This document shows positions 7,774 through 27,579 of a stretch of DNA of 32,659 nucleotides, in pieces. A program made the position numbers and the translations under genes. Every line of letters starts with the position of its first letter. The stretch's first letter is position 1. The notes under the pieces were generated by a model, which was not told the DNA's origin, ran no database searches, and saw nothing but the letters and a program-made list of their open reading frames with translations. Source of the DNA: a virus. The DNA lies in the IMG/VR virus record IMGVR_UViG_3300047317_000991, positions 1 through 32,659 of that record; one strand, given 5' to 3'.

Positions 7774-8781
7774 CTAACCTTCCCCACCCGTAGCAGCCTT
7801 CTGCTGCACCACCCCGAACGGGTACCGGGAGGCTTTGGTCGGCTGTTGGCGATTCACGGGATTTGGAACTGCCCATGCAAAACGCGCGATGACCCGGAGG
7901 GCCACCATGTCCTGCTGGAGCAGGTTGAACTGGATGACGGGCGGGCTGCCGTTGTCGGTGATGACGCCCGTGTCAAAAAGTTCCATCGATATGTCTTCGC
8001 GAATGGCGAGCATGCTCTGGTCCCACTGGCCCATGATCATCGAGTAGTTGGCCGCGCCCGTGACGTACCCGCTGAGGCCCGCGTTCGAGAAAATGATCGG
8101 CTCGCCGTACAGGCTGCCCGTGTCGGCTGACGCCGTCGGGGCCGTGTCGGGATACCACAGCAGCTCGTTGGTGGTGGCCCGCAAGCCGCGCAGTTTGCTC
8201 TTGACCTGGCGCCGCGCCCAGAACCCGGTGATGTCGAAGCCGTCGGATTCCACCGCGGCCATGGCCGCATTCACGTCGGCGAGGTAGTCGGGGGTGGTGG
8301 CGCCCGCGATGATCAGGTTGCCCGCGGCCGATGCCGAGGCGACGATCGAGGTCGGGAAGGTGGACGGCGCGTTGTTGCCGAAGAAGATCGCCTCGTCGAG
8401 CGCGACCCCGAACGCCTCGGTCACTTTCGGTTTGACCTGCGTCCAGAAGTCGTAATCGATGTCGTCCAGCAAGTTCTTGCTGATCGGGACGATGACCGCG
8501 ATCTCCTCTGCGTTGAGGTAAACATTGTCCCAAGCAACGGTAGTGGTCTGTTTCATGCCGATATCACGTGCATCTAACGATGCACCTGTCAGCCAGTATG
8601 CGACTGGCAACTGTGACATCACCGGGATTCTTTGCTGAGCCCTTTTCATGGTGACATGCGGCATAAGTCGCAGTGCCGCTGACTTTTGCTCGACCGATTG
8701 CACAATCTCTTTCTGAACGTCTTCCGGAATGAGCGCTCCTGCGCCCGGTGTCGCCCTTGTGGCTATCGAGTTGTACGGCAT
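7774..8781 (-). CDS. Major capsid protein, HK97-fold family, 335 aa
   Basis: The N-terminus (GALIPEDVQKEIVQSVEQKS, then MPHVTMK) and the LPVAYWLTG segment match the phage_capsid (HK97-like) family. So do the central EEIAVIVPISKNLLDD and the DEAIFFGN loop. Length fits a capsid without a long N-terminal protease-cleaved arm. It would form the icosahedral shell. It follows the scaffold-like gene, but a homing endonuclease in the opposite orientation separates the two. The first 85 or so codons use A/T-ending and rare codons (TTA, ATA, AGA, AGG), then the gene switches abruptly to the G/C-ending use of its neighbours near 8515. The start at 8781 has GAAAGAGG upstream. Confidence 0.92.
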   Translation of the reverse strand: MPYNSIATRATPGAGALIPEDVQKEIVQSVEQKSAALRLMPHVTMKRAQQRIPVMSQLPVAYWLTGASLDARDIGMKQTTTVAWDNVYLNAEEIAVIVPISKNLLDDIDYDFWTQVKPKVTEAFGVALDEAIFFGNNAPSTFPTSIVASASAAGNLIIAGATTPDYLADVNAAMAAVESDGFDITGFWARRQVKSKLRGLRATTNELLWYPDTAPTASADTGSLYGEPIIFSNAGLSGYVTGAANYSMIMGQWDQSMLAIREDISMELFDTGVITDNGSPPVIQFNLLQQDMVALRVIARFAWAVPNPVNRQQPTKASRYPFGVVQQKAATGGEG

Positions 8782-8829
8782 CTAACCAAGCCTCTTTCAA
8801 ATGCACCTAACGCTCATGGGAGCATCAGG

Positions 8830-8835
8830 TAGAAT
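8830..8835 (+). promoter_or_regulatory. Candidate -10 element for the HNH gene
   Basis: TAGAAT matches five of six bases of the bacterial -10 consensus and lies upstream of the rightward HNH gene, before the hairpin at 8847. I see no good -35 at the usual distance, so this is weak. Confidence 0.3.
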
Positions 8836-8846
8836 GGACAGCAAAA

Positions 8847-8877
8847 GCCCTCGCGCTGTTTGAGCACAGCCGAGGGC
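8847..8877. terminator. Hairpin between capsid and HNH genes, terminator-like leftward
   Basis: GCCCTCG, one unpaired C, GCTGT, a six-base loop, ACAGC and CGAGGGC form a 12-bp stem with a one-base bulge. On the minus strand it is followed by CTTTTGC, a short T-run, so it could terminate or attenuate late transcripts just ahead of the capsid gene. On the plus strand it lies in the leader of the HNH gene, before its GGGAG ribosome-binding site. Both uses are possible. Confidence 0.5.
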
Positions 8878-8901
8878 GCGACACCACGGGAGTAATCCGC
8901 G

Positions 8902-9564
8902 ATGCAGCATCAGTGTAACGGCGACGAAGAGTGGCGTTCTGTCTCTGGCTGGGACGGGATTTACGAGGTCAGTTGCTTCGGACGTATCCGACGCATTGCG
9001 CCCAGGCAGGACCAGGGCACGGTGCGCCTGGCCGGTCGCTCGGTTCGCAAGCGTAGCAACCTGAAACCAAAACCAGAACCGCGGGTACTGAAGCCCCACC
9101 TCCGTGGTATGTACCTGAGCGTCAGTTACTCGTTTGGTTCGGGCAGGCCAACGTGGGTACAGGTCCACGTAGAGGTAGCGAAGGCGTTTCTTGGCCCACG
9201 TCCCAGCCCTGGCCACACAGTGAATCATCTGAATCGTGACAAGTTGGACAACTGTGCTGAGAACCTGGGCTGGGCGACGCTGAGCGAGCAACAGATTCAT
9301 GCTCGCGAATCGCCACTGCATATCGGGCCGTACCGTCGATTGACCGGCGACCAGGCACGCGAAATCTACACGCAGCGCGGGATTTCCGGTCGCGAATACT
9401 CCCGTCGTCTCGGCATCAACGTCGCCACAATTTCGGGCATCCGCAACGGTCGGTTGTACCGATGGGCGCTCAGAGACTTGCTCGATGCGCCAGGGGAGGA
9501 ACGACCTGCTCACTGGTCGGCCTGTACGGTTGCCTGCGGTTGCCGCTGTCACTACGGCTCGTAA
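8902..9564 (+). CDS. HNH homing endonuclease with NUMOD4-like domain, 220 aa
   Basis: The N-terminus (EWRSVSGWDGIYEVSCFGRI) matches the NUMOD4 DNA-binding module. It is followed by an HNH nuclease core (VHVEVAKAFL, then TVNHLNRDKLDNCAENLGWA). A C-terminal helix-turn-helix (YSRRLGINVATISGIRNGR) would contact the target site. Free-standing HNH enzymes of this type cut phage genomes lacking the gene and spread by recombination repair. It is inserted between scaffold and capsid genes in the opposite orientation, so it must be expressed from its own signals. The ATG at 8902 has ACGGGAG about nine bases upstream. The adjacent first part of the capsid gene has atypical codon use, which may be a co-conversion tract. 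Confidence 0.88.
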   Translation: MQHQCNGDEEWRSVSGWDGIYEVSCFGRIRRIAPRQDQGTVRLAGRSVRKRSNLKPKPEPRVLKPHLRGMYLSVSYSFGSGRPTWVQVHVEVAKAFLGPRPSPGHTVNHLNRDKLDNCAENLGWATLSEQQIHARESPLHIGPYRRLTGDQAREIYTQRGISGREYSRRLGINVATISGIRNGRLYRWALRDLLDAPGEERPAHWSACTVACGCRCHYGS

Positions 9565-9574
9565 TTCCTTTCTT

Positions 9575-10309
9575 CTAGAGTGAGCGTCTGGAGCCCAGTT
9601 GGCCTCGAAGCAAGTTCGAGACGTTCTTGTCATTCGCCGAGGGAGCACCACTGCCGATGAACTCGGGCTCGCTCATGCCCCGGCGAAACTCGTTCAGGAC
9701 CTGTTTGCGGAAAGCGGGGTTGCGGCGCAGTTTGTCTTCCGCGTCTTTGGCGCCCTCGGCCTTCCAGTGTTTTTCCAGGGCTTTGAGCCCTTCTTCGACG
9801 ATGAGCTTGCGTCCCTCGAGACCGAGACCCGCGCCCTCGATGGCCATGATGCGGTTCCGCTCGGCCTGAGGTAAGGCCAGCACCACCGGGTCGACCGTGA
9901 AGCGGTCGTGGGTAGCGCCGATGTTGCCGAGGATCTCGCCGTTCTGCTGGTCGAGGTGAGCGATCTGCTCGGCCTTGCGCTCTTCCTCGGCAAAGGCCCA
10001 CGGGTCTTCGTCGCGGAGTTTGCGGCGTCGCTCGGCGGAAGCCTGGGTCGCGCGTTTGGCTTCGCGACGGTCCGTCTCAGCCTGGATCCGACGATCGAGC
10101 TCCTCCTGCGTCAGCGTGATCGCGCTGGACGTCTGTGGCGTAGGCTCGGGTTGCTCCTCGGGCTCGAGCTCCTGGCTCCCCCGTCCGTTGCGGAACAACC
10201 GCTGCAGGAAGGTGCGGGAAGCCGGTCGGCTCTGCTCGGAAGAAACCTCGCCTGCCTGAACATCCGCGGATGGCTCGACGGCCGAAGGCTCTGGTGCTGC
10301 TGGCTGCAT
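9575..10309 (-). CDS. Scaffold-like protein, 244 aa
   Basis: The protein is Ala/Glu/Pro-rich at the N-terminus. A charged alpha-helical region starts TLTQEELDRRIQAETDRREA, a pattern common in phage scaffolding proteins upstream of capsid genes. Further helices follow (LEKHWKAEGAKDAEDKL) and a Gly/Ser-rich basic end. It would guide procapsid assembly and leave before maturation. The ATG at 10309 has a GAGG about ten bases upstream. In most phages this gene directly precedes the capsid gene; here the HNH gene intervenes. An alternative is an internal virion protein. Confidence 0.65.
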   Translation of the reverse strand: MQPAAPEPSAVEPSADVQAGEVSSEQSRPASRTFLQRLFRNGRGSQELEPEEQPEPTPQTSSAITLTQEELDRRIQAETDRREAKRATQASAERRRKLRDEDPWAFAEEERKAEQIAHLDQQNGEILGNIGATHDRFTVDPVVLALPQAERNRIMAIEGAGLGLEGRKLIVEEGLKALEKHWKAEGAKDAEDKLRRNPAFRKQVLNEFRRGMSEPEFIGSGAPSANDKNVSNLLRGQLGSRRSL

Positions 10310-10321
10310 CGTAATCGATCC

Positions 10322-12310
10322 TCAGAAACTCGGTTGGTACGGGGGCATGACGGCTCCCTGCGCGAGGCCGCGAAAATCCTGTTGCGGCGCGGCCCCGTAG
10401 CCCTGTTGCAAACCGCCATAGAAGGGATGCTGCGGAATCTGGGGCTGCGGGGTCGGTTGCGGCGGGGGCTGATTCTGGTGGCTGACGGTGACCGTTCCAT
10501 CCGGGGCCACGGTCGTGGTCGGGGTGTAGTTGGTGCGGTTCAGTTGCTGGTTGATGTCCATGCCCTGGGGCATCTGGGCCATCTGGGGATTGGCCGTCTG
10601 CCCGGTGGACTGGCTCATGCCCTGGGCAGCAGTCGGCGAGATGTGGGCGAGGGCCTGATTGGTGACCTGCTGCGACAACTGGTTCAGGTCCGGCATCTGG
10701 TACGTGAGCGCGCTCGACCAGTCGATCCCCGTCGCCGGCTTGCCCGTCGTCCACGCGTCGGCGAGCTGGCCGAACGCTTTGCCAAAGCCCGGCCCAACCA
10801 TGTTCGGAAGTTGGGCCTTGTACGCCTCGACGGCATTCTGGCCGGCGCCCATGGCGGTGGCGTAGTTGGCGCGATTGGACTCTTCGGCCTTCTGTTGTTC
10901 GGTCGTCTGGGCCGTGCGCTGGGCCGCGTCAAGCACGGCTTTCTGCGGCTCGACGTTAGATGACCACCAACTATCGAACTGCTGCGCGGCCTGGTCGGCG
11001 GTAATCGCCCCCGACCGCTGCTTGTCTGCCAGGGCGTCGCGCTGCTGCTGCGCCGCGCTTTGCAGTTGGGCCACCCGTTGCGCCACCTCGGCCGTGGTGG
11101 TCGGCATGAAGTTCGGGTTGGTCTGGGTGCTGATCTGCCCGTTCTGCATCGTGGCGATGTTGGCCTGGGTGGACGGCGCGCTGATGACGGTCGGGTCCTG
11201 GGGCGTGAAGCGGGTCGGCGGCACGCTCGGGTCGACGATCCACTGACCGTTGCGGTACACCTCGCCCACGGTAAAACCACCCTGGACGTTCGAGCGCTTG
11301 TCGCCTTCGTTGGCCGCGCCAGGCAGAGCATTGGTGCCGATACCGGTGGTCCGCCAGGTCGTACCGTCATAGGTTTGCTCGACGTTGCGGCCATTCTCAA
11401 TGGACTGCCGTTTGTCGCCCACTTTGGCCGCGCCAGGCAGGGCCGACTCCCCGATGCCGGTGGTCGTCCATGCGCCATTCTGGAACGTCTGGGTGACGTT
11501 GCGGCCGTTCTCGACCACCTGCCGCTTCTGCCCTTCCGTACCCCCGCCGGGGATGGCCGAGTCGCCGACCGACGTGGTGCGCCAACTCGTGCCGTCGTAG
11601 GTTTGCTCGACGTAGCGGCCACCGTCGACCGAGGGCCGCTTGTCGCCCGCCTTCGGGGCGCCGGGGATGGCGTTGTCGCCCACCTTCGTGGTGACCCACT
11701 GCCCGTTCTGGTAGGCCTGGGTGACGTAGCGGCCGCTGTCGACGATGTCGCGCGTGGCGCCCTCGACCGCGGCGCCTGGCGTCGCGTTGCTGCCGACCGA
11801 GGTGGTGACCCACTGGCCGCCCGAGTACGTCTGCTCGACGTTGCGGCCGCCCTCCACCGCTGCGCGCTTGGCTCCCTCGGTCGGCTTCGCCTCGCCCGAC
11901 GGCAGGCCGGGCGCCTTCGTGTAGGTACCCGGTTTCTGGGTGGTCGGGTCGATGGCTTTGGGATCCCAGACGTACACCGAACCGTCCGCGCCCGTGACGT
12001 TGGGGTGGGTCTGATTGGCGGACGGCGTCTTCTCATTCAGCGTGGAGACATCGCCGGTCGAGGTCGCTTCCAGCACGGTGCCGTCCGCAAAGACATAGCG
12101 GTACGTCGGGTTCGGATTGGGGATGTCCTTCGGCTCACCGGGCAGCGCGCTGGGGTTCGGGATGGTTGGGTTGGTGTTGTAGGGCGTACCCAGCGGCGAC
12201 CCGTGCTTGTCCGTCAGGTGCGCGATGAGCGGACTGATCGGCGTTGTGTACGGGTCGAACGGATCAGACGGGCTGGAAGACGAAGTGGCGGGCTGGGCTG
12301 CTGGCGGCAT
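10322..12310 (-). CDS. 662-aa repeat protein, probable internal virion or structural protein
   Basis: The N-terminal 140 residues are Pro/Thr/Asn-rich and contain a YRYVFADGTV segment. Residues 146-335 are five tandem 38-aa units, each with (G)xKR, NGRxVxQTY, GxWxTTxVG and AIPGA; a sixth partial copy follows. Then comes a long Gln/Ala-rich helical region with probable coiled coil, and a Pro/Gln-rich tail. No enzyme motif is visible. It lies between the giant polyvalent protein and the scaffold, where short-tailed phages encode ejected or core proteins. The ATG at 12310 has TAAGGAG seven bases upstream and lies ten bases past the upstream stop. Role inferred from position and composition. Confidence 0.6.
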   Translation of the reverse strand: MPPAAQPATSSSSPSDPFDPYTTPISPLIAHLTDKHGSPLGTPYNTNPTIPNPSALPGEPKDIPNPNPTYRYVFADGTVLEATSTGDVSTLNEKTPSANQTHPNVTGADGSVYVWDPKAIDPTTQKPGTYTKAPGLPSGEAKPTEGAKRAAVEGGRNVEQTYSGGQWVTTSVGSNATPGAAVEGATRDIVDSGRYVTQAYQNGQWVTTKVGDNAIPGAPKAGDKRPSVDGGRYVEQTYDGTSWRTTSVGDSAIPGGGTEGQKRQVVENGRNVTQTFQNGAWTTTGIGESALPGAAKVGDKRQSIENGRNVEQTYDGTTWRTTGIGTNALPGAANEGDKRSNVQGGFTVGEVYRNGQWIVDPSVPPTRFTPQDPTVISAPSTQANIATMQNGQISTQTNPNFMPTTTAEVAQRVAQLQSAAQQQRDALADKQRSGAITADQAAQQFDSWWSSNVEPQKAVLDAAQRTAQTTEQQKAEESNRANYATAMGAGQNAVEAYKAQLPNMVGPGFGKAFGQLADAWTTGKPATGIDWSSALTYQMPDLNQLSQQVTNQALAHISPTAAQGMSQSTGQTANPQMAQMPQGMDINQQLNRTNYTPTTTVAPDGTVTVSHQNQPPPQPTPQPQIPQHPFYGGLQQGYGAAPQQDFRGLAQGAVMPPYQPSF
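11222..11875 (-). repeat. Tandem 114-bp coding repeat (38-aa unit), five copies plus a partial sixth
   Basis: The units start at GAKR, GATR, GDKR, GQKR, GDKR and GDKR, spaced 38 residues apart. The aligned consensus has NGRxVxQTYxxGxWxTT then VGxxAIPGA. Copies differ by substitutions, so they are diverged, but the DNA similarity could support recombination between units. Confidence 0.9.
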
Positions 12311-12319
12311 ACGGGCTCC

Positions 12320-15300
12320 TTAGGGGTTCATCCACGCTTGTGCGGCCGCTGACGCCGCGCCGCGCTGGGGTAGGGCCTGGGCCAGACGAGCACGACGTTC
12401 CTCGGACGGAATGGCGCGCAGGATCTCGCCTTCGGCGCGCTGGTGGCCCAGGTTGACTGCCTGTTCGATCATGGTCTGGCGCTGGGCCGGCGTGGCTCGC
12501 TGCCAGCCTGCCGTCTGAGCGGTGCGGTGGATGAAGTCGTCGACATAGCGATTAGCTGTCTCCTGTAACTGCGTCTCCTCGTCCAGTTGCAGGGGGATGC
12601 CTTGCACCGTGCTCGGCACCGGGGTGGGGGTGTACTGCACCCCGGCGTCGCGCAAGAGCTGGGTGGCCGACGGGGTGAGCGCTGCCTGACGCGCCTGCTG
12701 CAGCGACTCGCCGGTGTTGCCGCGCACGAAGCGGCCGACCACACTGCCCAGCACCGGGATGGTCGACGGCCCGGCGGCGGACTGGTTGGGGGTCTGGGCC
12801 GGGCCGTAGCCGGCGCTCTTGAGCGCCATGTCGGTAGCACTCAGCCCGGCAGTCGCGGTGCCGGCGCCGATATTGCGGATGGCGAAGTCGATCGCGGAGG
12901 GCCGCGCCGTCGAGCCGGGCGCCACCACGTCGGCGAGCCGCTGCGCGGCGGGAGTCAGCCACTTGGCCGTCGGGCTGGCGGCCACGTCGGCGCGGTTGGT
13001 GACGATGTCGCGGTTACGGTAAAAATCCTTGTTCAGCGCGAGCTGAGCAGCGGTCTGCACCCCCGGCAGGCTGAGAGCCATCTTCTGAGCAAAGTCGGCC
13101 GGGCCGGTGGCCTGCACCGGCAGAGCGCCGGCCAGCATCGAGCCTGCGGCGTCCTGCCAACTACCGGTGTCCTTGCCCATGGCGCGGTCGGTCGCCTCGC
13201 GCGCCATCGACACAAACGGGGACCAGTTGCGGGTGTTGATCCAGGCAAACTGCGGGTGGCGATCGCCTCGAGCGTCGACGGGCGCTTCGGTCGGCAGCAT
13301 GATCACGATGCCCTGGTCCTTGATGTATTTGGGCACGTCGGCGTAGTCCTTCGCGCGCTGCGGGTCGGCGTTGTTCCAGATCTCAGCCGCGACGGTGGGC
13401 ATGCCGATCAACGAGCCGGCCGTGAAGATCGCCGCGCGCGGGTTGGACCGGAACGTGCGCGCCACCTGGAGCGGCCCCTGCACGCCGACGTTCAGGAACG
13501 GGATCATCTGCGACAGCAGGCGCGTCGCCGTGCCGCCGCGGTTGAAGTCGATCGTCGCGTCGCGGCCGGCGACGATTGCCTGGACCGGGTTCATGCCGCG
13601 TTGCTCGGCCAGGCGCATGGCCGCCACGCGCGGGCCGTAGTCGACGCGGTTGACCAGATTCTCGACCGGCTTGAGCGTGATCAGGTCCCTGATCAGACTC
13701 CGCACGCCGGCGGGGGAATTGATCGGGATACCGCGCATCTGCTCGACCATTCTGGCCGCGTCCTGGCTGCTGCCGCTGAGCGCTCCGAACTGGCCGCCGC
13801 CACCCAGCAGCAACTGCTGGGTGCCCTCGCCAGCCTCAGCCAGCGTTTTGCCCTGCAGCATCCCCTGGAAGACGTCCCCGTACCCCTTGGCCAGTTCGCT
13901 CAGCACGCGCGGCAGGGCTTGCGGGCCGCCCTCGAGCGCGGTCTGGCGGAAGATGTACTGCGGGATGGTGAAACTCGCGTGCCCGGCGACAAACGCGGGG
14001 TTGCGGCTGGCGGCGACGTTGCGGAACACGTTGGCCCAGGCGGTCATGAACTTCGGCAGCGAGGTCTGGTGGGCGCCCTCGATTGCCTGCCCCAGGGCCT
14101 TGTTGTCGGTGACGAAGCGTTGCTTCTGGCCATTGATGAAGCCCTGCACGGTCGCCTGGTCGCTGGTCGGGTGGAAGTCGCCTGTCACGGGGCGGAGCTG
14201 CGGGCTGGGACTGGCCTGGTCCAGTTTGACCGCGGCGTTGAAGGCGTCGTTCTTCATCGCCATTTTCTCGACCTGGTGGGTGTAGGCGACCATCGAGGCC
14301 AGCGGGTCCTCCCGCGCGGCTACCGTGCCGGCCTGGGTGTAGGCGTGGACGTCGCGCGAGCCGAGGCCGATCCCCGTACCGCTCGCCTGACCGCCACCAC
14401 TCGCGTTGTCCATGTGCTGCAGGATGCGGGTCTTGACCCAGTCGGGGTACTTGCTGGCCATCTCGTCGGCCTGGTCGGCACTGAGTACGCCCGAGTCGAC
14501 CAGCCGCTGGCGCAGGGTGCGGCCGTACTCCGAGACCTGATCGGCAGCGGCTTGCACCCTGGCGAAGCGCTCGGGGCCGAGCTCCTGCTGGATCTGCTGG
14601 ATGGCCGCCTCGCTGTCGGCTTTGTTGACGCCGCCCGAGAACATGCGGTTGGCCGTGGCCTCGGCGCCGCTGCGGCTGGCACTGTCGAGCACGGCCTGCC
14701 GCGCGGTCTCGACCGCTGACTGGGCGCGCGTCAGGGTGCGCTGGGCGGAGGTGACGCTGCGCTGCGCGGCCGCCACCCTGGCGCCGTCTGGCAGGCTGTC
14801 GGCCTGCAAACGCTCGAGCGCTGCCTGGCGCCCGCGCAGGCTCGTCTGCGCGCTGTTGACTTTGTCAGTCAGGTTGGACGGCACCTGGGTATCGGCCAGG
14901 TTCCGCACGAGGTCCTGTCCGACTCCGTCGGCCACCTGGATGTTCGACCGGGCGGTGACGTAATTCCGCAGCGCCTGGTAGTCGTCGCCGACGGAGCGGA
15001 TGGCCGGCGCGAGGCCCTGCTGCAACCGCGTCTCGGCCGCCGGTCCCGGCTGCAGGCGGCTCAGTTCGTACATCATCTCGTCCGCGTTCAACGGGCGAGC
15101 CAGGGCTGTAGCGTAGGCCTGCTGGGCCTGGGCGATGTCGACCCCGCGATCGGTCAGCGCTCGCACGATCGCGGTACGGGCATCAGCCATGCGCTGAAGG
15201 ATCGAGTCGCCGCCCTTCGGCGCCGCGTACATGGCATTGATCCGATCGAGGGGCGTGCCGGTTGCAGCGGACGTCTCGCCAACCTGATGTGCGGCCTGGT

Positions 15301-18300
15301 TGGCCACGGCAGCCTCGGGCGGCATGGCGCTGTTGGATGGATGAGTAGCCTGGGCCGCGACCGGATCCACGGTGGTGAGTGGATGTACGCCAGCGGCCTG
15401 GGCGCTGTCTGCCGACGGGTAACGGCGTGCGTAGGCGAAGCGAGCGCCCGCGTCGGTGTAGCCGCCCGCGCCGCTGGCCGCCTCGACATCGAACCCGGCG
15501 TCCTGCGCCGCCTGGTACAGCGCGGTGCCGATGCCCTGCCGCTGATAGGCTGGATCGACCGCGACCTGCAGCAGCCCGGGCTGCCCACTCGGTTGATCGA
15601 TATGCAGCTCGAGCACGCCGACCGGCTCGCCCTGGGCATTGCGCGAGACCACGTACCGCGTACCGGTGTCGGCGACCTCGGGGCCGCCAGGGATACCCAG
15701 GTAGCCGCGCTCGATGCTGATGCCGGGCGGTCCCGTGCGCGTGCGCAGATTCTGGGCAAGCTGATCGACCGTCTGGGTCGGCACCACGTCATCCGCACGC
15801 GGCGCCGTCCGCAGGAAGTCCTCAAGACTCGGCGCCGCGGAAGCACTCGCTGCTGCTCCGGGCGATGCCGCTGGTTGGCCGAGCCCCAGCAACCCCGCGC
15901 CGCCTTCGAGGGTACGGCCGGCCAACTGGGCGGCCTGCTCCTCGAGCGGCTTGATCTTGTTGCCCAGGGCATCGACAGCATCGCCTGCGCCGCCCATCTC
16001 TGCGCCGCCGACGAGCATCGCCAGACTGCCGGCTCGATCTCGGTCCTCTGGAGTGAAGCGGTCGTCAGGAATCCAGGTGCCGTATTTGGCCAGCAGATCG
16101 CGCTGAATCGCCGTCGAGCTTTCCCCGCCAGCCACGGCGCGCACCACCTGCGCCAGCAGACTGGGATCATTCTGAATGTTGGCTTTGACCGCATCGCCCG
16201 CCGTGTTGATGGCGTTGGCGGCCAGGTTGCCCGCGCCGCTCACGATCGGGATGCCACTGGGGATCGGCCCCTCGGTGAGACCGGACGTCGACGGCTGAAG
16301 ACTTCTGTCCGCGGGCATCACGGTGGAGCGCGCGGGATTCGTCAGCGTGTCGCTGGGCGTGGGCTGCTGAGCGGCAGTCATGACACCACCCTGGCCCTGC
16401 ACCGAATCGATGAAGTCGCCGAAGGCACTCTTCAGGCGATCGACGGGGCTCTGCTGCGGGGCCAGATTGCCCGTGCCCAGGGGATTGGTCAGCGAGTCCG
16501 ACGGGGTCGGCGGATTGGCCGCGGGTCCCATGATCCCCATGGTGTCCGCCGCGGCACTGAGGCTGGAGGCTTGCTGCACCGCGCTGTCCAGACGATTGAC
16601 GTCCTGGTCGGCCGTCCCGAGCGACGACGGCACTGCCTGCTGCACGGCGGTGCCCACCGCGTTGAAGGCGCCGCCGATAGCATCCTTCGCGCGATCGAGA
16701 AAACTCCGCGGGTTGGAGCCCTGGTCGGCTGTGCTGGGCGCCGGCACCTGTGGGTTGTCGGCCAGCAGGCCGCCCTGGACGGGTCCCATCAACGCGGACA
16801 TCTGGGCCGGGGTCATCCACTCGCTGCCGCCCTTCAGGTCGAGGCCGCTGCGGCCGACGTGGAACGCGCCCGAGTTGGGGTCGTAGCCGTCGGCCGTGAA
16901 GTAGTGGTTCTGGGTACTGATGGTCACCGGGTTGCCGGTCTGGGCTTCGGCCGCCAGCCGCTGGATGTCGGGACCGACCATCGTTGTCGGCACGCCCATC
17001 TTGTCCATCAGCGCTTTTTCAGAGCCGAGGCCGGCCATGCCCTGGGCGACCGTCCAGCCCACGGTTTTTGCCAGGTCGGTCGCCTCGCGCAGGGTCGGGT
17101 TGCGCCCGAACATTTGGGCGAAGCGCACGGCCGCGGCCGGGCCGCATGCTGAATAGGCCTCATCGCTCGAGAGCTGGGCGTCCCCGAACTGGCTGACGGT
17201 ATTGATCGCGTTGCGGCCGGCAGTGCTCACGGCCGAGGCCGCGTTGCCGATCGCGCCGCCCACGCCTTCTAACGCCTGCTGCCCCGTGCTCCTGGCCGCG
17301 CCGAGGATGTTCTTTACGTAGGTCTGGGTCTCCTGGAATGGCGGCACCCCGCCGTACTTGTCGACGTTGCCCGGCCCGGCGTTGTAAGCCGCCAGGGTCT
17401 TCGACCAGTCGCCGCCGTACTTCTGGAGGTTCTGGGCGTCCATTCGGGCCGCTGCCTCCAAACTGGCGTACGGGTCGGAGGGGTCGAGGCCCACACCTGC
17501 TGCCGTGGCCGGCATGAACTGGGCGATGCCCTGGGCACCCGCGCCGCTCCTGGCTGCCGGATTGAAGCCGGACTCTTGCTGGATCTGGGCGACGAACACC
17601 TGCGGGTCGATGCCGTACTTCGAGGCCATCTGCTGTGCATAGGCCTGCAGACCCCCCGTCCCCGTCTGCGACCCCGACGTACTCAGTGCCGTCGCGGCCA
17701 CAGGCGGAGTCGGGGGAGGTGGAGTGAAGGTGCTGGCGAATTGCTGCACGTCGCCGCCGGCCTGGGCCACCGCGTTGATGGCATGACCGAAAATGTCCTG
17801 CCCGCCGCTGGCCACGCGCGACGTCAGGTCATTGGCAAAGGTCTGGACGTTGGCGCCGGCTGCCGCCGCGGCGTTCAGCGCACTCCCGAACCAGTCACCG
17901 GTGGACGCAGCCGGAGGGGCCTGCGGAGCCGGTGCTGGAGGGGGAGGAGGCGCCACCACTGGTTGGGGTGCCGGCGCAACCGGTGGTGGAGGTGGCCCCA
18001 CCACATCCGCTGGAGGAGGTTGGTCCGGCGGTGGCGGCGAGAGCTCGGGGGGAGCGATGGGGGCTGGGGAGGGCGGAGGAGGGACGGGAGCCTCGACCGG
18101 GGGTTCCGGAGGTGGAGCTTGCGATGGGGTAATATTCCCGGTGCCCAGCGGATTGGTCAGGCTATCGCTGGACGGTGGACGTTCCAGTGTGGCAATGCGT
18201 GAATTCGCCGCATTCTCGAAACTCAGGCCGTCGATCCGACGGCTGGCCTGCTGCTGAAACTGGTCGGCCTCGTACTGGCGGTACTGGTCTTCCGGGATGT

Positions 18301-18316
18301 CCGGCAAATCGGGCAT
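12320..18316 (-). CDS. Giant polyvalent protein, 1998 aa: transglycosylase, papain-like peptidase, GNAT-like and LPD38-like regions
   Basis: A Pro-rich linker (about residues 66-135) precedes a lytic transglycosylase domain at about 225-340 with catalytic Glu248 in QQESGFNP, plus AQGIAQFMP and AYNAGPGNV. A papain/C39-like region follows, with Cys391 in SACGPAAAVR and His471 in NHYFTADGYD. A GNAT-like acetyltransferase segment is at about 870-965 (VAVDPAYQRQGIGTALY). Residues about 1150-1220 look like a coiled coil. The C-terminal half, around DATIDFNRGG (1586) and IPFLNVGVQG, resembles the LPD38 domain of large polyvalent proteins. Such proteins are packaged in the virion and ejected with DNA, the hydrolases opening the cell wall and the enzymes acting in the host. 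The motif SLTNPLGTGN occurs at 52 and again near 608. Enzyme domains are clear; the overall role is inferred. Confidence 0.85.
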   Translation of the reverse strand: MPDLPDIPEDQYRQYEADQFQQQASRRIDGLSFENAANSRIATLERPPSSDSLTNPLGTGNITPSQAPPPEPPVEAPVPPPPSPAPIAPPELSPPPPDQPPPADVVGPPPPPVAPAPQPVVAPPPPPAPAPQAPPAASTGDWFGSALNAAAAAGANVQTFANDLTSRVASGGQDIFGHAINAVAQAGGDVQQFASTFTPPPPTPPVAATALSTSGSQTGTGGLQAYAQQMASKYGIDPQVFVAQIQQESGFNPAARSGAGAQGIAQFMPATAAGVGLDPSDPYASLEAAARMDAQNLQKYGGDWSKTLAAYNAGPGNVDKYGGVPPFQETQTYVKNILGAARSTGQQALEGVGGAIGNAASAVSTAGRNAINTVSQFGDAQLSSDEAYSACGPAAAVRFAQMFGRNPTLREATDLAKTVGWTVAQGMAGLGSEKALMDKMGVPTTMVGPDIQRLAAEAQTGNPVTISTQNHYFTADGYDPNSGAFHVGRSGLDLKGGSEWMTPAQMSALMGPVQGGLLADNPQVPAPSTADQGSNPRSFLDRAKDAIGGAFNAVGTAVQQAVPSSLGTADQDVNRLDSAVQQASSLSAAADTMGIMGPAANPPTPSDSLTNPLGTGNLAPQQSPVDRLKSAFGDFIDSVQGQGGVMTAAQQPTPSDTLTNPARSTVMPADRSLQPSTSGLTEGPIPSGIPIVSGAGNLAANAINTAGDAVKANIQNDPSLLAQVVRAVAGGESSTAIQRDLLAKYGTWIPDDRFTPEDRDRAGSLAMLVGGAEMGGAGDAVDALGNKIKPLEEQAAQLAGRTLEGGAGLLGLGQPAASPGAAASASAAPSLEDFLRTAPRADDVVPTQTVDQLAQNLRTRTGPPGISIERGYLGIPGGPEVADTGTRYVVSRNAQGEPVGVLELHIDQPSGQPGLLQVAVDPAYQRQGIGTALYQAAQDAGFDVEAASGAGGYTDAGARFAYARRYPSADSAQAAGVHPLTTVDPVAAQATHPSNSAMPPEAAVANQAAHQVGETSAATGTPLDRINAMYAAPKGGDSILQRMADARTAIVRALTDRGVDIAQAQQAYATALARPLNADEMMYELSRLQPGPAAETRLQQGLAPAIRSVGDDYQALRNYVTARSNIQVADGVGQDLVRNLADTQVPSNLTDKVNSAQTSLRGRQAALERLQADSLPDGARVAAAQRSVTSAQRTLTRAQSAVETARQAVLDSASRSGAEATANRMFSGGVNKADSEAAIQQIQQELGPERFARVQAAADQVSEYGRTLRQRLVDSGVLSADQADEMASKYPDWVKTRILQHMDNASGGGQASGTGIGLGSRDVHAYTQAGTVAAREDPLASMVAYTHQVEKMAMKNDAFNAAVKLDQASPSPQLRPVTGDFHPTSDQATVQGFINGQKQRFVTDNKALGQAIEGAHQTSLPKFMTAWANVFRNVAASRNPAFVAGHASFTIPQYIFRQTALEGGPQALPRVLSELAKGYGDVFQGMLQGKTLAEAGEGTQQLLLGGGGQFGALSGSSQDAARMVEQMRGIPINSPAGVRSLIRDLITLKPVENLVNRVDYGPRVAAMRLAEQRGMNPVQAIVAGRDATIDFNRGGTATRLLSQMIPFLNVGVQGPLQVARTFRSNPRAAIFTAGSLIGMPTVAAEIWNNADPQRAKDYADVPKYIKDQGIVIMLPTEAPVDARGDRHPQFAWINTRNWSPFVSMAREATDRAMGKDTGSWQDAAGSMLAGALPVQATGPADFAQKMALSLPGVQTAAQLALNKDFYRNRDIVTNRADVAASPTAKWLTPAAQRLADVVAPGSTARPSAIDFAIRNIGAGTATAGLSATDMALKSAGYGPAQTPNQSAAGPSTIPVLGSVVGRFVRGNTGESLQQARQAALTPSATQLLRDAGVQYTPTPVPSTVQGIPLQLDEETQLQETANRYVDDFIHRTAQTAGWQRATPAQRQTMIEQAVNLGHQRAEGEILRAIPSEERRARLAQALPQRGAASAAAQAWMNP

Positions 18317-20539: not shown

Positions 20540-20564
20540 CAGTCGGCCAGACTCCGTTCGCGGG

Positions 20565-20570
20565 TATACT
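20565..20570 (+). promoter_or_regulatory. Candidate -10 element placing the HNH start near the transcription start
   Basis: TATACT matches five of six -10 consensus bases. The predicted start site falls close to the GTG at 20578, so the HNH mRNA could be leaderless. No good -35 is visible. Confidence 0.35.
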
Positions 20571-20577
20571 TTCGGAT

Positions 20578-21324
20578 GTGGAGAGACGTACTTTCGACAG
20601 ACAACCCAACGGTTGGCTGTATGCGGCAACGGGAAAAGTCACCAGGGTCTGTCCTGAGTGCGGTGAGTCCTTTGAACGCCATCCGTCTGTTGCGGCGACG
20701 CAGCGCTATTGCAGCGTGGCGTGTCGAGATGCAGTTGGTCATACCGAGATCGAGTGCCGTGAATGTGGAACAACGTTCACGTTGCGCAAAAGCCTGGCGA
20801 CCAAGCGTCAGTTCTGTGGTCGTCGATGCGCCAATGCAACTCGGATGCGCATCCAGAATGACCCGGGCACATTCTGGGATCACGTCCGGACTGGCTTCCC
20901 GGACCAATGCTGGCCGTGGACGGGCGCAACGCACAATGGCTACGGATACTACTCGCGTGAGAAAAAGACCCAGACAGCGCATCGTATTGCATGGGAATTG
21001 ACGCATCAGCAGCAGATCCCGGATGGACTCGTGATTCGGCATCGGTGCGACAACCCGCCCTGCTGCAACCCCAGTCATTTGATCGTCGGGACCCGCCACG
21101 ACAACTCGAGAGACATGGCTGAACGGCAACGCAGTGGAGCAATTGGTCGCATGCCACGTGGCTCCGCGCACCCCCTCGCCATCCTGAACGAAGAACAGGT
21201 GCGCATGATTCGGGTGGCCGCAGCGAGTGGCGAATCGTATGCCAGTCTTGGGCGACGCTTCGGGATCAACCCTGTCGGGATTCGGCATATCGTCGTGCGC
21301 AAGACCTGGAAACATGTCGATTAA
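20578..21324 (+). CDS. HNH endonuclease with paired zinc ribbons, 248 aa
   Basis: The N-terminus has two Cys4-type fingers: CPECGESF with CSVAC, and CRECGTTF with CGRRC. Next is an HNH_3-type nuclease core: CWPWTGATHNGYGYY, HRCDNPPCCNPSHLIVGT and then HDNSRDM. A C-terminal helix-turn-helix (YASLGRRFGINPVGIRHI) would help target binding. It is probably a selfish homing endonuclease. It runs against the late operon between portal and the 142-aa gene, and its TAA overlaps the portal's TAA in a TTAA, so it fits exactly at the portal end. The GTG at 20578 is preceded closely by a -10-like TATACT and has no clear ribosome-binding site. Confidence 0.88.
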   Translation: MERRTFDRQPNGWLYAATGKVTRVCPECGESFERHPSVAATQRYCSVACRDAVGHTEIECRECGTTFTLRKSLATKRQFCGRRCANATRMRIQNDPGTFWDHVRTGFPDQCWPWTGATHNGYGYYSREKKTQTAHRIAWELTHQQQIPDGLVIRHRCDNPPCCNPSHLIVGTRHDNSRDMAERQRSGAIGRMPRGSAHPLAILNEEQVRMIRVAAASGESYASLGRRFGINPVGIRHIVVRKTWKHVD

Positions 21325-23381
21325 CGCCCCGGGCCTATCGGCAGCATGTTGGGCGGCGGGTTGGGCACGACGACGTTGCCGGCCGGCGCGCCGCCGGGAG
21401 GCATGGCCAGCCCTGGTTGACCGCCGGGAGGAGGTGGCGCGAGAGGCAGGCCCGCTCCGGGCGACGGCACCGGGTTCGGGGGCATGCCGCCGGGCATCGG
21501 TCCCGACGGCGGGGTACCGGGCGTGCCGGGCACGTTGGTGACCGCGCCGGTCTGCAGCCCGGCCATCTCGGCCGGGCTGGGGTTGCCCGCGGCGTTGACG
21601 CGTTTGGCCTGGATGGTGCCCAGTTTCTGGAAGACGGCGTCCTTCAACTGCTGCTGGATCTCGGGGCTCTGCTTGAGATCGTGCAGCAGCCAGGAGCGTT
21701 CGACCTCGTCGGGGTTGCCGCCGGCCTCGGTGACCGCGTCCTCGTAGGTGATCAACTTGAGCTGCATCTTCTCGCCGATGCTGCGGATCTGGATGATCTC
21801 GTTCGAGGGGGTGGACGGGCTCAACCGCACGGTGTAGCGGTGGATGCCCTCGAGGTCGGCGGGGTCCATGCGCAGCCAGGAGCCCTTGGTCTGGCCGGCG
21901 CCTCGTCCACCCGTCTTGCCGGGCTGTTCGCCCCAGGCATAGACCGACTCGGCGATCCTGTTCTCGATCAGCCACGACTCGAAGCCGGTTCTCTCGGCGA
22001 GCGCCACTTCCGCGTTGCTGACGATGGGATTGAAGGCGAGCCCGGCGAGGTAGGCGGCCTGGTTGAGGGCGTACCCCGACTGGTCGGCGCCCACCGCGCC
22101 CGAGAACGCGGCCGGCATAGCCCGTTCGACCAACTGCTGCACGTTGGTCAGCAGCTTCGAGGCGTCCTGGCCGGACTGGGGCTGGTCGACGGGGGTGACG
22201 TCGAAGGGGTAGAGCTTGCCCGGCTCGAGGCGGTCCTGGACGGCCTGCTCCTGACCGCTGGCCCCGTACGGCAGCCCCGGGATCTGGTTCGGGTTGGTGG
22301 TCTGCTTCCAGGCCGGGAAGCCGGTCAGGTACGCCGAGTTGCCCTGCATCGTCAGCAGGGAGTCGATCAGTCTGAAGAGCTGCAGGTAGCCGTACAGGAC
22401 GCTGAGGCCGGCGTGCTCCGGGAGTCTCGATGCCGTGGTGATGCCGAGCGCGTGGAAGTAGGGACCTCTGAGGGTGTGCAAATGCGGGTCGCCGTAACTG
22501 TGCTGGGTGACCTTACACAGGGTGGACTGGTCGTTGCCCTTCGCGATCTGGTTAGGTCCCGACAGGCACACCACCTGCACGTGCTCGTCCCAGGCCTCGA
22601 TGCATTTCAAGGTGGTGGAGCCGGCCGTCTTCATGATGTGGCTCCACTCGGGGCGCGCGAGCTGGGCCGCCTGGGGATCGAAGCTCCTGTCCTTTGAGGG
22701 AGCACGGACGTTGCCACTGGAGTCGAGCTCGGCGCCGAAACGCTCGAGGGCTTCGAGGTAGGGCACGTCCTTGATCTCCACCACCGACGTGTAGCCGTTC
22801 TCGTTGCGCGTGTAATAGAAGGATTCGGGCGGGACGTCGGTGGTGGCGATGGGGTACGGCAGGCCGAGTTTGAGATTTTCGGTGTGCTTGTCGTAGGCCA
22901 GGTCCTGGGCGTGCTGGTCGAGGCCGTCCTGCTCGAGCTCTTTCTGATAACTCTCGGAGTCGAGGGCGTACGTGCTCCACGCCGCGGCGCTTCTTTCCAG
23001 GGTTTTTAAGATGCCTTCCCCTTTAACGGCGAGGCTCCACATGAAGAGGCGGGAGAGCTGCCGCCGTGCTTCCTGTTCCTGTCGCTGCCAGCTCGCCTCG
23101 AAGAAGCGCTCTCGTCGCGTCGAGTTCTCCTGGTAGACGTCGCCGAAGCCGACGGGTCGGAAGCCTACCGTCGGGGCGTTGACGCTCAGGGCGGCGGCCA
23201 CGTTCTGGGCGATGTGCAACGCCAGTGGGGCTCTGACCTCCACCGCTGTCTTGCGGTACGCCTCGGGGATCTCGATCGGGAAATTCGAAAACAGGGTGGC
23301 GTCGATGTCGCGATAGAGAACGTCGCGATCGTGGAAGTCGCGCTGCAACTGGTCGGCGAGCTCGCACGTGAGTTGCTGCAT
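21321..23381 (-). CDS. Portal protein, about 686 aa
   Basis: A long protein, upstream of the head genes and downstream of the large terminase, with a portal-like body: a helical N-terminal region and a YRKTAVEVRAPLALHIAQNV segment. The middle contains PPESFYYTRNENGYTSVVEI and LSVLYGYLQLFRLIDSLLTM, typical of the wing and stem parts of dodecameric portals. After about residue 600 the tail is Pro/Gly-rich (GMPPNPVPSP and related), presumably flexible. It would form the DNA channel at the capsid vertex. The ATG at 23381 has GGAAGAG just upstream and is preferred; a TTG at 23447 would add 22 residues but lacks a ribosome-binding site. Family assignment is by position and residue patterns. Confidence 0.75.
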   Translation of the reverse strand: MQQLTCELADQLQRDFHDRDVLYRDIDATLFSNFPIEIPEAYRKTAVEVRAPLALHIAQNVAAALSVNAPTVGFRPVGFGDVYQENSTRRERFFEASWQRQEQEARRQLSRLFMWSLAVKGEGILKTLERSAAAWSTYALDSESYQKELEQDGLDQHAQDLAYDKHTENLKLGLPYPIATTDVPPESFYYTRNENGYTSVVEIKDVPYLEALERFGAELDSSGNVRAPSKDRSFDPQAAQLARPEWSHIMKTAGSTTLKCIEAWDEHVQVVCLSGPNQIAKGNDQSTLCKVTQHSYGDPHLHTLRGPYFHALGITTASRLPEHAGLSVLYGYLQLFRLIDSLLTMQGNSAYLTGFPAWKQTTNPNQIPGLPYGASGQEQAVQDRLEPGKLYPFDVTPVDQPQSGQDASKLLTNVQQLVERAMPAAFSGAVGADQSGYALNQAAYLAGLAFNPIVSNAEVALAERTGFESWLIENRIAESVYAWGEQPGKTGGRGAGQTKGSWLRMDPADLEGIHRYTVRLSPSTPSNEIIQIRSIGEKMQLKLITYEDAVTEAGGNPDEVERSWLLHDLKQSPEIQQQLKDAVFQKLGTIQAKRVNAAGNPSPAEMAGLQTGAVTNVPGTPGTPPSGPMPGGMPPNPVPSPGAGLPLAPPPPGGQPGLAMPPGGAPAGNVVVPNPPPNMLPIGPGR

Positions 23382-23459
23382 GGTCTCTTCCGCGGACGCG
23401 GACTTACCCCACCCCGCCGGACCGGACGAACGGGTGAGTGTAGCCAAGATACGCAGAGT

Positions 23460-24050: not shown

Positions 24051-24238
24051 GAAAACCCTGCCTTGCCTCGCCTGGCCGGGCCAAGCCACGCCACGCTCCG
24101 CCCAGCCTGGCCTCGCCCGGGCCGAGGCCCGCCCGAGCGTGTCCATGAAAACCCTGCCTTGCTACGCCTAGCCCAGCCGTGCCATGCCCTGCCGAGCCCC
24201 GCCAGGCCATGCCTTGCCAAGCCCGGCCCAGCCGTGCT
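23996..24238. repeat. GGCNN pentamer repeat array in three blocks
   Basis: On the plus strand the units are NNGCC. Block A (23996-24030) has seven perfect 5-bp units. Block B (24058-24117) has twelve, then degrades. Block C (24154-24238) has seventeen in strict 5-bp phase, ending on the first base of the RAMP-like gene's stop triplet. Blocks B and C each begin at a 16-bp exact repeat gaaaaccctgccttgc (24051-24066 and 24147-24162), and a degenerate form precedes block A. A second short repeat, GTTCTGGGAYCG, occurs at 24033-24044 and 23969-23980. Because the unit is five bases long, all three minus frames and some plus frames stay open across it. Confidence 0.9.
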
Positions 24239-24860: not shown

Positions 24861-26207
24861 CTAGCCGAATCGGAGAGGCCGGGGGGTCGTAGGGCGCGGG
24901 GGCTGGGCTTCGTAGGCGAGGCCGTAGCGCAGGGCATCGACGCTGTGGTCTTCGGTTTTGGTACTGCCGAGGGTATCGGCGAGGTCTTCGCCGTCGAGCG
25001 GATCGACGACCATGCTGGGCAACGTCCGCACCAGATTGGGAGCAGCTCCCGAGAGGATCTGCAGACGTGGCGGCCCGTCGTCGTGAGCCAGCGCTCGTCG
25101 GGTGAGTGCCCAGCCCGGAATCCTGGAGTTCATGCCCGGAAAGAGGGGCCGCACGCCACACGTCCAGTACACCGCGGCGATCGAGGGCCGCTGTGCTTCC
25201 GTTCGAGGATTGAACATGGCGGGGTCCAGAATATTCTGGACGATCCGCTCGTCGCCGCTGGCTTCGAGGATCTTGTACGCCTGCACCTCGTCTCGGAACC
25301 CGCTGCCGTACAGTTCGCGGTAGACGTAGATGCGCTTATCTTCCGGACAACGGGTGAACCAGAGACACGTGAACGGGGCACTGAAGCCGTAGTCCGTGGA
25401 GGTCCACCTCGGCCACTCGTCGGGGATCTCGAATCTGGGACAGATGTGCAGCGAAGGATCCCACTCGACGAAGAATTGCCCCTGGGGCGCCACCCACTGC
25501 CCCAGTCGCAACCGCTGGTACAGAAACCCCGTGAGGCTATCCAGGGTGGCGATGTACTCCTTGCCGAAGTCGGTCCACTCTCCCTGCTGATAGAGCATCG
25601 GGTTGTCTTCGTGGGTGCTTTCGAGCAGCTCGCACTCGCCCGCATTACAGCGTTGTTTCAACCAGTGATCGGGAGAGCTCGGGTTGCAATCAGCCACGAT
25701 TTGCCGATAACTCAGCACTCCATTTCGGAGCCCGCGGAGGAGCATCGCCCAGTCGTCTTCACCTAATTCCGTGGCTTCCTGGACGTACACGACGTCGAAT
25801 TCCGTGGACCCGATTTTCTCCGGATCGTCCAGTCCAGCGACCATAATTCGTGCCCCGGACGGGTACCGATATTCCTGATCTCCCTCGTGAAATCGCACCT
25901 GATTCGGCCTGGGCAACACCTTGTTTTCGAGGGTCGCCATGGCACTCTGGGTCAGGCTTTTCCGTGTCTTCCGGACGATAGCCGCACGGATCGGCTTCTG
26001 CATCGCAATCAGGTTCAATTTCTCTAAACAGGCCCGGCTTTTTCCCGTCCCGGCAGGCCCCGATAAAAGCACTTCTCGACGCCGACTTCGGAACAATTCC
26101 AGAGCCGCCCCGTGGGGTTGATAGGGCGCCTCATCCGGTGACGCTTCCGTGCCCCACTCCACCGTCGCCGGCCGTCCTACCTGGCTCAGCTTGTTACTCG
26201 GCGGCAT
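24861..26207 (-). CDS. Terminase large subunit, 448 aa
   Basis: The ATPase domain has Walker A GPAGTGKS at residues 50-57 and a Walker B-like FDVVYVQEATE at 137-147 (catalytic Glu144). The nuclease domain shows the expected acidic residues in order: Asp272 in TSTDYGF, Asp328 in ILDPAMF, and Asp424 in HSVDALRYGL. The length is typical. The enzyme translocates DNA into the procapsid and cuts concatemers. The ATG at 26207 overlaps the preceding 70-aa gene by 14 bases. The genomic neighbours (small terminase upstream, portal downstream) agree, although two extra genes intervene before the portal. Confidence 0.95.
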   Translation of the reverse strand: MPPSNKLSQVGRPATVEWGTEASPDEAPYQPHGAALELFRSRRREVLLSGPAGTGKSRACLEKLNLIAMQKPIRAAIVRKTRKSLTQSAMATLENKVLPRPNQVRFHEGDQEYRYPSGARIMVAGLDDPEKIGSTEFDVVYVQEATELGEDDWAMLLRGLRNGVLSYRQIVADCNPSSPDHWLKQRCNAGECELLESTHEDNPMLYQQGEWTDFGKEYIATLDSLTGFLYQRLRLGQWVAPQGQFFVEWDPSLHICPRFEIPDEWPRWTSTDYGFSAPFTCLWFTRCPEDKRIYVYRELYGSGFRDEVQAYKILEASGDERIVQNILDPAMFNPRTEAQRPSIAAVYWTCGVRPLFPGMNSRIPGWALTRRALAHDDGPPRLQILSGAAPNLVRTLPSMVVDPLDGEDLADTLGSTKTEDHSVDALRYGLAYEAQPPRPTTPRPLRFG

Positions 26208-27087: not shown

Positions 27088-27579
27088 TTAGAGCACGGAT
27101 GCAGGGTCAACGCCAGCGATTGACTTGATAATCTGGTTGACTGCTACGTCGACCTTTTCTCTGTACAGGTCAGGTTTCCGGGCTCTGAGTAAGAGCATGA
27201 GTAACTGGTCTGAGTACTCGATTTTAGAGTCGGTACCGACTGGTTCACCATGCCAGTAAGAGGTACGTGTATAGGGGCTACCTTCGGTAGCACGTCGCCA
27301 TGCTTCACGTTCTAAGCGTTCGGTAGCAGCCTCACCGGCGAGCTTTACTGCAGCAGCGAATTCAAGGTCATTCTCTAACCACGTGTAATAGGTCTGTCGC
27401 ATGACGCCAGCGACGACACATGCACTCGAAATGTTTGCCCACGCTACGTAATCTTTCAGAAACGCGTGCTTGGCTCGTCCAGCCTGCGCAGGGGTTAAGT
27501 TCTGGCCTGAGGGACGGATACCGAGGCCGACACTGGTAGAGCGGACGGGTTCCGTGGTGCGAGTAAGGTCTACAGTCAT
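27088..27579 (-). CDS. Terminase small subunit-like protein, 163 aa
   Basis: The segment AKHAFLKDYVAWANISSACVVAGVMRQTYYTWL is an N-terminal helix-turn-helix of the kind that recognises packaging sites in small terminases of the phBC6A51 type. A helical middle (EAATERLEREAWRRAT) and a C-terminal ARKPDLYREK segment also fit. It would form a ring that binds the packaging start site and recruits the large subunit. Codon use is unlike its neighbours, with many A/T-ending codons and several TTA codons, suggesting a separate origin. It is the first gene of the leftward operon, facing the rightward operon across a palindrome-bearing promoter region. Confidence 0.75.
   Translation of the reverse strand: MTVDLTRTTEPVRSTSVGLGIRPSGQNLTPAQAGRAKHAFLKDYVAWANISSACVVAGVMRQTYYTWLENDLEFAAAVKLAGEAATERLEREAWRRATEGSPYTRTSYWHGEPVGTDSKIEYSDQLLMLLLRARKPDLYREKVDVAVNQIIKSIAGVDPASVL

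Follow-up and report, generated by a model that had tools for sequence, protein, structure and literature searches.

What would an acetyltransferase-like domain be doing in the same viral polypeptide as enzymes predicted to cut the bacterial cell wall? This question is raised by a gene in the IMG/VR virus record IMGVR_UViG_3300047317_000991, of which we analysed a stretch of 32,659 bases (the window, meaning that whole stretch; it is called W in comparisons with related loci, which carry L-numbers). The gene, P0001, occupies positions 12320 to 18316 on the minus strand, as do all genes and domains of the window located below, starts with ATG and encodes a putative ejection protein of the polyvalent type with a length of 1998 amino acids (aa). 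An earlier note on this DNA had given the position and length of the open reading frame (ORF) exactly, without stating the strand, and had divided the chain into transglycosylase, papain-like, GNAT-like and LPD38-like regions; the SLT transglycosylase, GNAT and LPD38 regions all exceed their Pfam cut-offs. A copy with 96% identity on a separate contig (L002) excludes an artefact of assembly. We lean towards reading the protein as a modular, polyvalent-type ejection protein that would open the cell wall and would bring with it an accessory acetyltransferase directed at a host protein.

In this proposal the protein would be packaged inside the particle and ejected on entry, whereupon the SLT domain would cut the glycan strands of peptidoglycan and a papain-fold cysteine hydrolase would cut its peptide stems, the two cuts together clearing a local passage for DNA and protein. 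The LPD38-type C-terminal region would probably aid packaging or translocation of the chain. The GNAT cassette, which we see as optional and as inserted into the variable middle region, would act in the cytosol and most likely acetylate a host protein early in infection; acetyl-CoA resides in the cytosol, and it is for this reason that the GNAT could work only there. We propose a role in cell entry because the SLT domain resembles T7 gp16, because the peptidase slot is filled by other enzymes in relatives, and because the gene has a putative portal gene on one side and the scaffold and capsid genes on the other. The acetyltransferase-effector part of the proposal is plausible.

The best-defined part of the chain is the SLT lytic transglycosylase domain (residues 226-330; 17327..17641; PF01464, E 1.3e-23), with the catalytic Glu248, the motifs QESGFNP, GIAQFMP and AYNAG, and a Glu248 column that is conserved in 30/30 aligned sequences. 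This part falls with the PHROGs families of endolysins, of lytic tail proteins and of the "internal virion protein with endolysin domain", the match to the last of these (phrog_342) reaching E 1e-26 and stopping at residue 403. A predicted model of the SLT and C39-like domains together (mean pLDDT 76) was compared with known structures by VIA-align, where the listed matches are occupied by SLT chains and speak for the SLT part alone: Slt enzymes are matched with Z up to 16.8, and gp16 of the T7 virion core with Z 14.3 (9jyy_I) and 13.1 (7eyb_I). In isolate phages 817 records give a match, of which the 40 best-listed do so around the SLT part only, each covering at most 9% of the protein and none reaching past residue 403, and the GNAT part has no match at E 0.01 among 50,697 records; on this ground the isolate-phage collection seems to contain no cultivated member of the lineage. 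The glycan-cleaving slot can be filled differently: it holds a GH73 glucosaminidase in L032 (E 7e-15) and, with weak profile support, a tail-lysozyme-like domain in L023 and L024. The order of the parts may also vary, as in L140 (12346-17997), where a C39-like domain precedes GH73, the inverse of the usual order.

Relatives were gathered in two ways. A scan of IMG/VR gave 47 loci, which were compared all against all; because C39 peptides had served as part of the bait for this set, a second survey started from the putative portal protein instead and returned 80 loci, in 36 of which the portal gene is followed downstream by a long chain that is complete and has 1,300 aa or more. The long chains of these portal-found relatives span about 1490 to 2600 aa. 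In L065 (5820-11114 and 11114-12184) and L106 (5467-9642 and 9829-11007) the long chain is found in two ORFs with the break in the C-terminal region, which could be a frameshift, a sequencing error or a true split.

These surveys bear on the second hydrolase, a papain/C39-like cysteine hydrolase domain (residues 375-530; 16727..17194) recognised by a sub-threshold PF13529 match and by conservation. Cys391 and His471 are present in 34/34 aligned rows and His486 in 32/34, and the model of the domain weakly matches phytochelatin synthase Alr0975 (2bu3; Foldseek E 2-3e-3, TM-score by target ~0.5), which is a papain-fold enzyme. In the portal-found set the peptide-cleaving slot is C39-like in 32/36 chains, Peptidase_M23 in three (L069, L075 and L094; E ~1e-19 to 1e-20) and NlpC/P60 in one (L112); L050, which was found through its GNAT, also has NlpC/P60 at this place (E 4e-19). 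The M23 and NlpC/P60 matches exceed the curated cut-offs, and both families are established peptidoglycan peptidases. Because the same slot is filled by one or the other of them in relatives, stem peptides of peptidoglycan are the most likely target of the C39-like domain. The earlier suggestion that the protein opens the cell wall is well supported, by inference, through the likeness to T7 gp16, the phrog_342 match, the slot substitution and the gene position. The idea that the C39-like domain is the constant hub of the family was rejected, as its share in the portal-found set is not universal. Two short proteins on Chloroflexota contigs from metagenome-assembled genomes (MAGs), one of 628 aa with GH73-like and C39-like parts (L055:9029-10912) and one of 266 aa with a C39-like part (L057:9662-10459), may be relatives of the entry enzymes from cells or prophages.

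The third enzyme-like part is the GNAT-like cassette (residues 836-965; 15422..15811). Acetyltransf_1 (PF00583) matches residues 885-944 with E 3.1e-9 and 37.6 bits against a cut-off of 20.7, and GNAT motif A is present as QRQGIG (residues 925-930; 15527..15544), in agreement with the consensus Q/RxxGxG/A of the acetyl-CoA pyrophosphate loop, so that the homology on which the earlier note had staked its claim holds. The motif is retained as QRQGI[GA] in family members and as QRRGIA in L053, where a GNAT is present in an unrelated chain. In the predicted model the core strands and the motif-A helix are confident (about model residues 58-120), and 50/50 of the top VIA-align matches in the PDB are GNAT-type acetyltransferases. 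The ratio of nonsynonymous to synonymous substitution rates (dN/dS) is 0.23-0.43 between five lineages, with dS near saturation for some pairs, and the cassette is under purifying selection. A call of the substrate from fold or sequence was attempted and abandoned, as the matches scatter over aminoglycoside, spermidine, histone, RimI and tRNA acetyltransferases; the aminoglycoside-like target that had been offered as one option is thus unsupported.

Within the family the GNAT is found in six lineages (W/L002, L068, L050, L022, L032 and L061), which differ in the accompanying hydrolases and C-termini, and among the portal-found relatives it is carried by 2/36. W and L050 are 71-73% identical in the GNAT and about 25-27% in the C-terminal region, the latter region of L050 being 59% identical to that of the GNAT-free L024. 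The last 1,200 residues of L061 are 48-64% like those of L044, L018, L029 and L048, which have other material at the position of its GNAT, in several of them a 550-aa module related to DUF7178. The putative portals of L064, L065 and L067 are 98-99% identical to that of W, yet these loci have no GNAT. This low carriage, the differing partner domains and the GNAT-free relatives with near-identical portals together argue that the GNAT is an optional module, repeatedly gained or lost, as judged from the sequences. We considered a recent transfer specific to the GNAT between W and L002, where dS is 0.02 in the GNAT and 0.15-0.35 around it, but the tracts at 14.06-14.28 kb and 11.2-11.9 kb are as similar as the GNAT, and the low value is thus one patch of a general mosaic.

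This mosaicism extends over the whole family. The all-against-all comparison revealed an N-terminal block that is conserved; beyond it the segments are shuffled, and the C-terminus is of three types, among which B and C show homology to each other (hhalign E 3e-27) and the LPD38 type A has only about the last 95 residues in common with type B (hhalign E 1.6e-6). The LPD38 domain of the window's protein (residues 1656-1844; 12785..13351; PF18857) is matched with E 1.2e-6 and 29.1 bits against a cut-off of 27, and relatives score higher, up to 77 bits. A segment at residues 655-802 (15911..16354) is 81% identical to one in L014, whose chain is otherwise different, and the variable middle of eight GNAT-free relatives (L048, L029, L005, L009, L036, L023, L045 and L044) contains the alternative 550-aa module, which is partly DUF7178; searches with this module gave no relative in the PDB and DUF7178 as the sole family match.

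Several observations weigh against a protein that cuts both parts of the wall and delivers a working acetyltransferase. In the putative peptide cutter, the Peptidase_C39_2 match (PF13529, residues 385-486; E 0.0015, 19.6 bits) is under the cut-off of 24, and no Asp is present at about His+16 to +18, the canonical spacing of the C39 acid. Because the Pfam score and the placing of the third catalytic residue both depart from those of a C39 peptidase, we call the domain papain-like and refrain from assigning it to that family. Six relatives whose N-terminal part was scanned each give a like sub-threshold match, and His486, at His+15, makes a Cys-His-His pattern that is nearer to the NlpC/P60 triad. 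The papain-like region of the earlier note, although sub-threshold in Pfam, is nevertheless backed by the invariant Cys391 and His471, by the matches of the relatives and by the papain-fold match. In the GNAT, the last 35 residues of the model are poor (pLDDT <50, with no clear beta5-alpha4), and the fold matches are modest (Z at most 7.2 over ~80-100 residues); judged by the model, the cassette may be degenerate or inactive. As most relatives are without it, it is dispensable for the core function, and it could also act in the producing cell after late expression.

The alternative that survives best accepts a cell-wall-opening ejection protein and takes the GNAT to be a dead, structural or decaying insert carried by recombination. 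It fits the lack of a confident model for the C-terminal half of the fold, the carriage in two of the 36 relatives and the highly mosaic nature of the gene; against it are the dN/dS values across five lineages, the acetyl-CoA loop retained in the family and the occurrence of the cassette in six lineages, and we consider it rather unlikely. Another alternative would have the GNAT acetylating phage or host proteins at the stage of late expression or assembly, inside the cell that produces the particles, and not on entry. Acetyl-CoA would be available there too, and the gene is in a structural, presumably late-expressed region, but a late enzyme would need no fusion, while every GNAT chain of the family is fused to entry enzymes and delivery is the simpler reason for such a fusion. 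We regard this explanation as improbable.

A repeated peptide, P[TS]xSD[ST]LTNPLGTGN, allows for a third alternative. It occurs in three copies in W, namely PPSSDSLTNPLGTGN (residues 47-61; 18134..18178), PTPSDSLTNPLGTGN (residues 603-617; 16466..16510) and PTPSDTLTNP (residues 652-661; 16334..16363), in two to four copies in L022, L014 and L036, and once each in L005 and L006. The copies stand outside the recognised domains, at linkers, and one further copy is present in a second virion-type protein of L036 (L036:3828-5747). The first two copies of W have twelve residues in common (SDSLTNPLGTGN) and differ in synonymous codons, so that it is apparently the peptide and not the DNA that is conserved; the peptide may be a processing or docking site. 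The C39-like domain could then be a self-processing protease that cuts at linkers such as SD[ST]LTNPLGTGN and frees the GNAT or other effectors, in the manner of the zincin metallopeptidase (MPTase) to which Iyer et al. gave a self-processing role, arguing that polyvalent proteins need processing (PMC5512222). The recurrence of the motif in four loci, its presence in the second virion-type protein and its codon variation would suit such a protease. The slot, however, holds the peptidoglycan enzymes M23 or NlpC/P60 in relatives, and most relatives, including most of those with a C39-like domain, are without the motif; self-processing by this domain seems to us to have little chance of being correct.

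The genome neighbourhood agrees with a head gene. The 708-aa putative portal protein (21321..23447), so called from position, size and co-conservation only, has 94 relatives among viral contigs and no family match in profile searches. Next to P0001 are P0003 (18323..20101), which encodes a co-conserved, low-complexity protein of 592 aa and possible second ejection protein, and P0002 (10322..12310), which encodes a co-conserved protein of 662 aa with repeats of ~38 aa and possible third ejection protein; a 114-base tandem repeat at 11597-11859 is the source of these repeats. The putative scaffold gene (9575..10309) is assigned by position, and profile matches identify the major capsid protein (7774..8781; phrog_10, E 2e-44), the terminase large subunit (24861..26207; phrog_2, E 1e-32) and the terminase small subunit (27088..27579; phrog_4044, E 2.5e-22), as well as a tail fibre, a DNA methyltransferase and an exonuclease. 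L004, L022 and L050 retain the gene order putative portal, 144-aa protein, 592-aa protein, 1998-aa protein, 662-aa protein, putative scaffold and capsid. Among those ORFs of the window that were examined, none was recognised as coding for a tail tube, sheath or tail chaperone, and the phage, an uncultivated virus from soil, is probably short-tailed. A place among the head genes is what one would expect of an internal virion protein, and not of a tape measure. That the phage is long-tailed and the 1998-aa protein its tail tape measure is highly improbable: SLT and peptidase domains are common in tape measure proteins, and SPbeta YomI (57% over 113 aa) is among the best isolate-phage SLT matches, but the gene is not downstream of the capsid among tail genes, none of the tail genes just named was recognised in the ORFs that were examined, and the chains of portal-found relatives differ in length as given above.

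Other features of the region may be recorded here. In the 1998-aa protein the search for membrane segments gave one weak hydrophobic stretch only (residues 1628-1646). Gaps of ~0.8 kb with no convincing ORF separate structural genes at 8797-9570 and 20546-21320, the second of which aligns poorly to L002 although the adjoining genes align well. A 25-base tandem repeat, GCCAAGCCCAGCCAGGCCATGCCCT, is present in 2.5 copies at 24166-24228, between the terminase and putative portal genes. Assignment of a host was given up, as matches to MAGs (Chloroflexota and Acidobacteria) conflict with the likeness of capsid and terminase to those of actinobacterial phages.

Returning to the ejection protein with an accessory acetyltransferase, we speculate, as a tentative extension, that the middle of the chain is a dedicated, swappable effector slot whose cargo is selected apart from the cutters, that the GNAT acetylates a host protein within minutes after entry, and that the linkers may mark processing or docking. 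Were this the case, the chain would be a delivery vehicle, in which phages with near-identical portals have exchanged their pairs of entry enzymes and their cargo, be it the GNAT, the DUF7178-related module or other segments. This gives a testable picture of an ejection protein built from interchangeable slots for glycan cutting, peptide cutting and cargo, with natural swaps (SLT or GH73; C39-like, NlpC or M23; GNAT or other material) as ready-made controls: the replacements allow a cell-wall role to be assigned to the C39-like domain, and a comparison of relatives with and without the GNAT could point to the role of the acetyltransferase. If delivered and active, the GNAT would modify the host ahead of any phage gene expression, as an effector of the phage.

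Among known systems, the closest are the phage polyvalent proteins, in which Iyer et al. predicted GNATs and LPD38 (PMC5512222). Such proteins are marked by at least two different enzymatic or effector domains in one chain, by an LPD-type domain, and by packaging in the particle and delivery along with the DNA. The present chain has SLT, C39-like and GNAT on the first count and LPD38 on the second, while on the third the indication is the position of its gene; it shares with them a very long chain, a structural region, a lysozyme-like enzyme, LPD38 and a GNAT. It differs in that Pfam reports no zincin MPTase, ADP-ribosyltransferase (ART) or N4-like RNA polymerase in it, and in the C39-like slot, which holds NlpC/P60 or M23 in relatives. 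Its GNAT matches one of the examples of Iyer et al., gp113 of Mycobacterium phage Alice, weakly (hhalign probability 38%, E 3.4e-4, 68 columns). The earlier view that a GNAT in such a chain is unusual is right in part: within the family the cassette is in the minority, but reports of GNATs in polyvalent proteins of phages date from 2017 (PMC5512222). In the literature we found no ejection protein with GNAT and transglycosylase closer than these; multi-part phage proteins are already known, and no earlier description was found for the present set of interchangeable parts.

T7 gp16, of the internal core or ejectosome, likewise contains an SLT domain in a very large internal virion protein, as the 1998-aa protein is presumed to be. 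Unlike in T7, however, the 1998-aa gene stands between the putative portal and scaffold genes and not after tail tube genes, the detected similarity is confined to the SLT region, and the protein adds the peptidase, GNAT and LPD38 parts. A further comparison is offered by Rac (LUZ19 gp28), a GNAT-like protein found in phiKMV-like phages: the alpha subunit of host RNA polymerase is cleaved in a way that requires residues of the acetyl-CoA pocket of Rac (PMC7552054). In contrast to what we propose for the 1998-aa protein, Rac is a solo protein made after infection, neither fused to cell-wall enzymes nor ejected. As a phage GNAT-like protein that acts on the host it is nonetheless a precedent, and by this analogy a host protein is a plausible target of the GNAT carried here.

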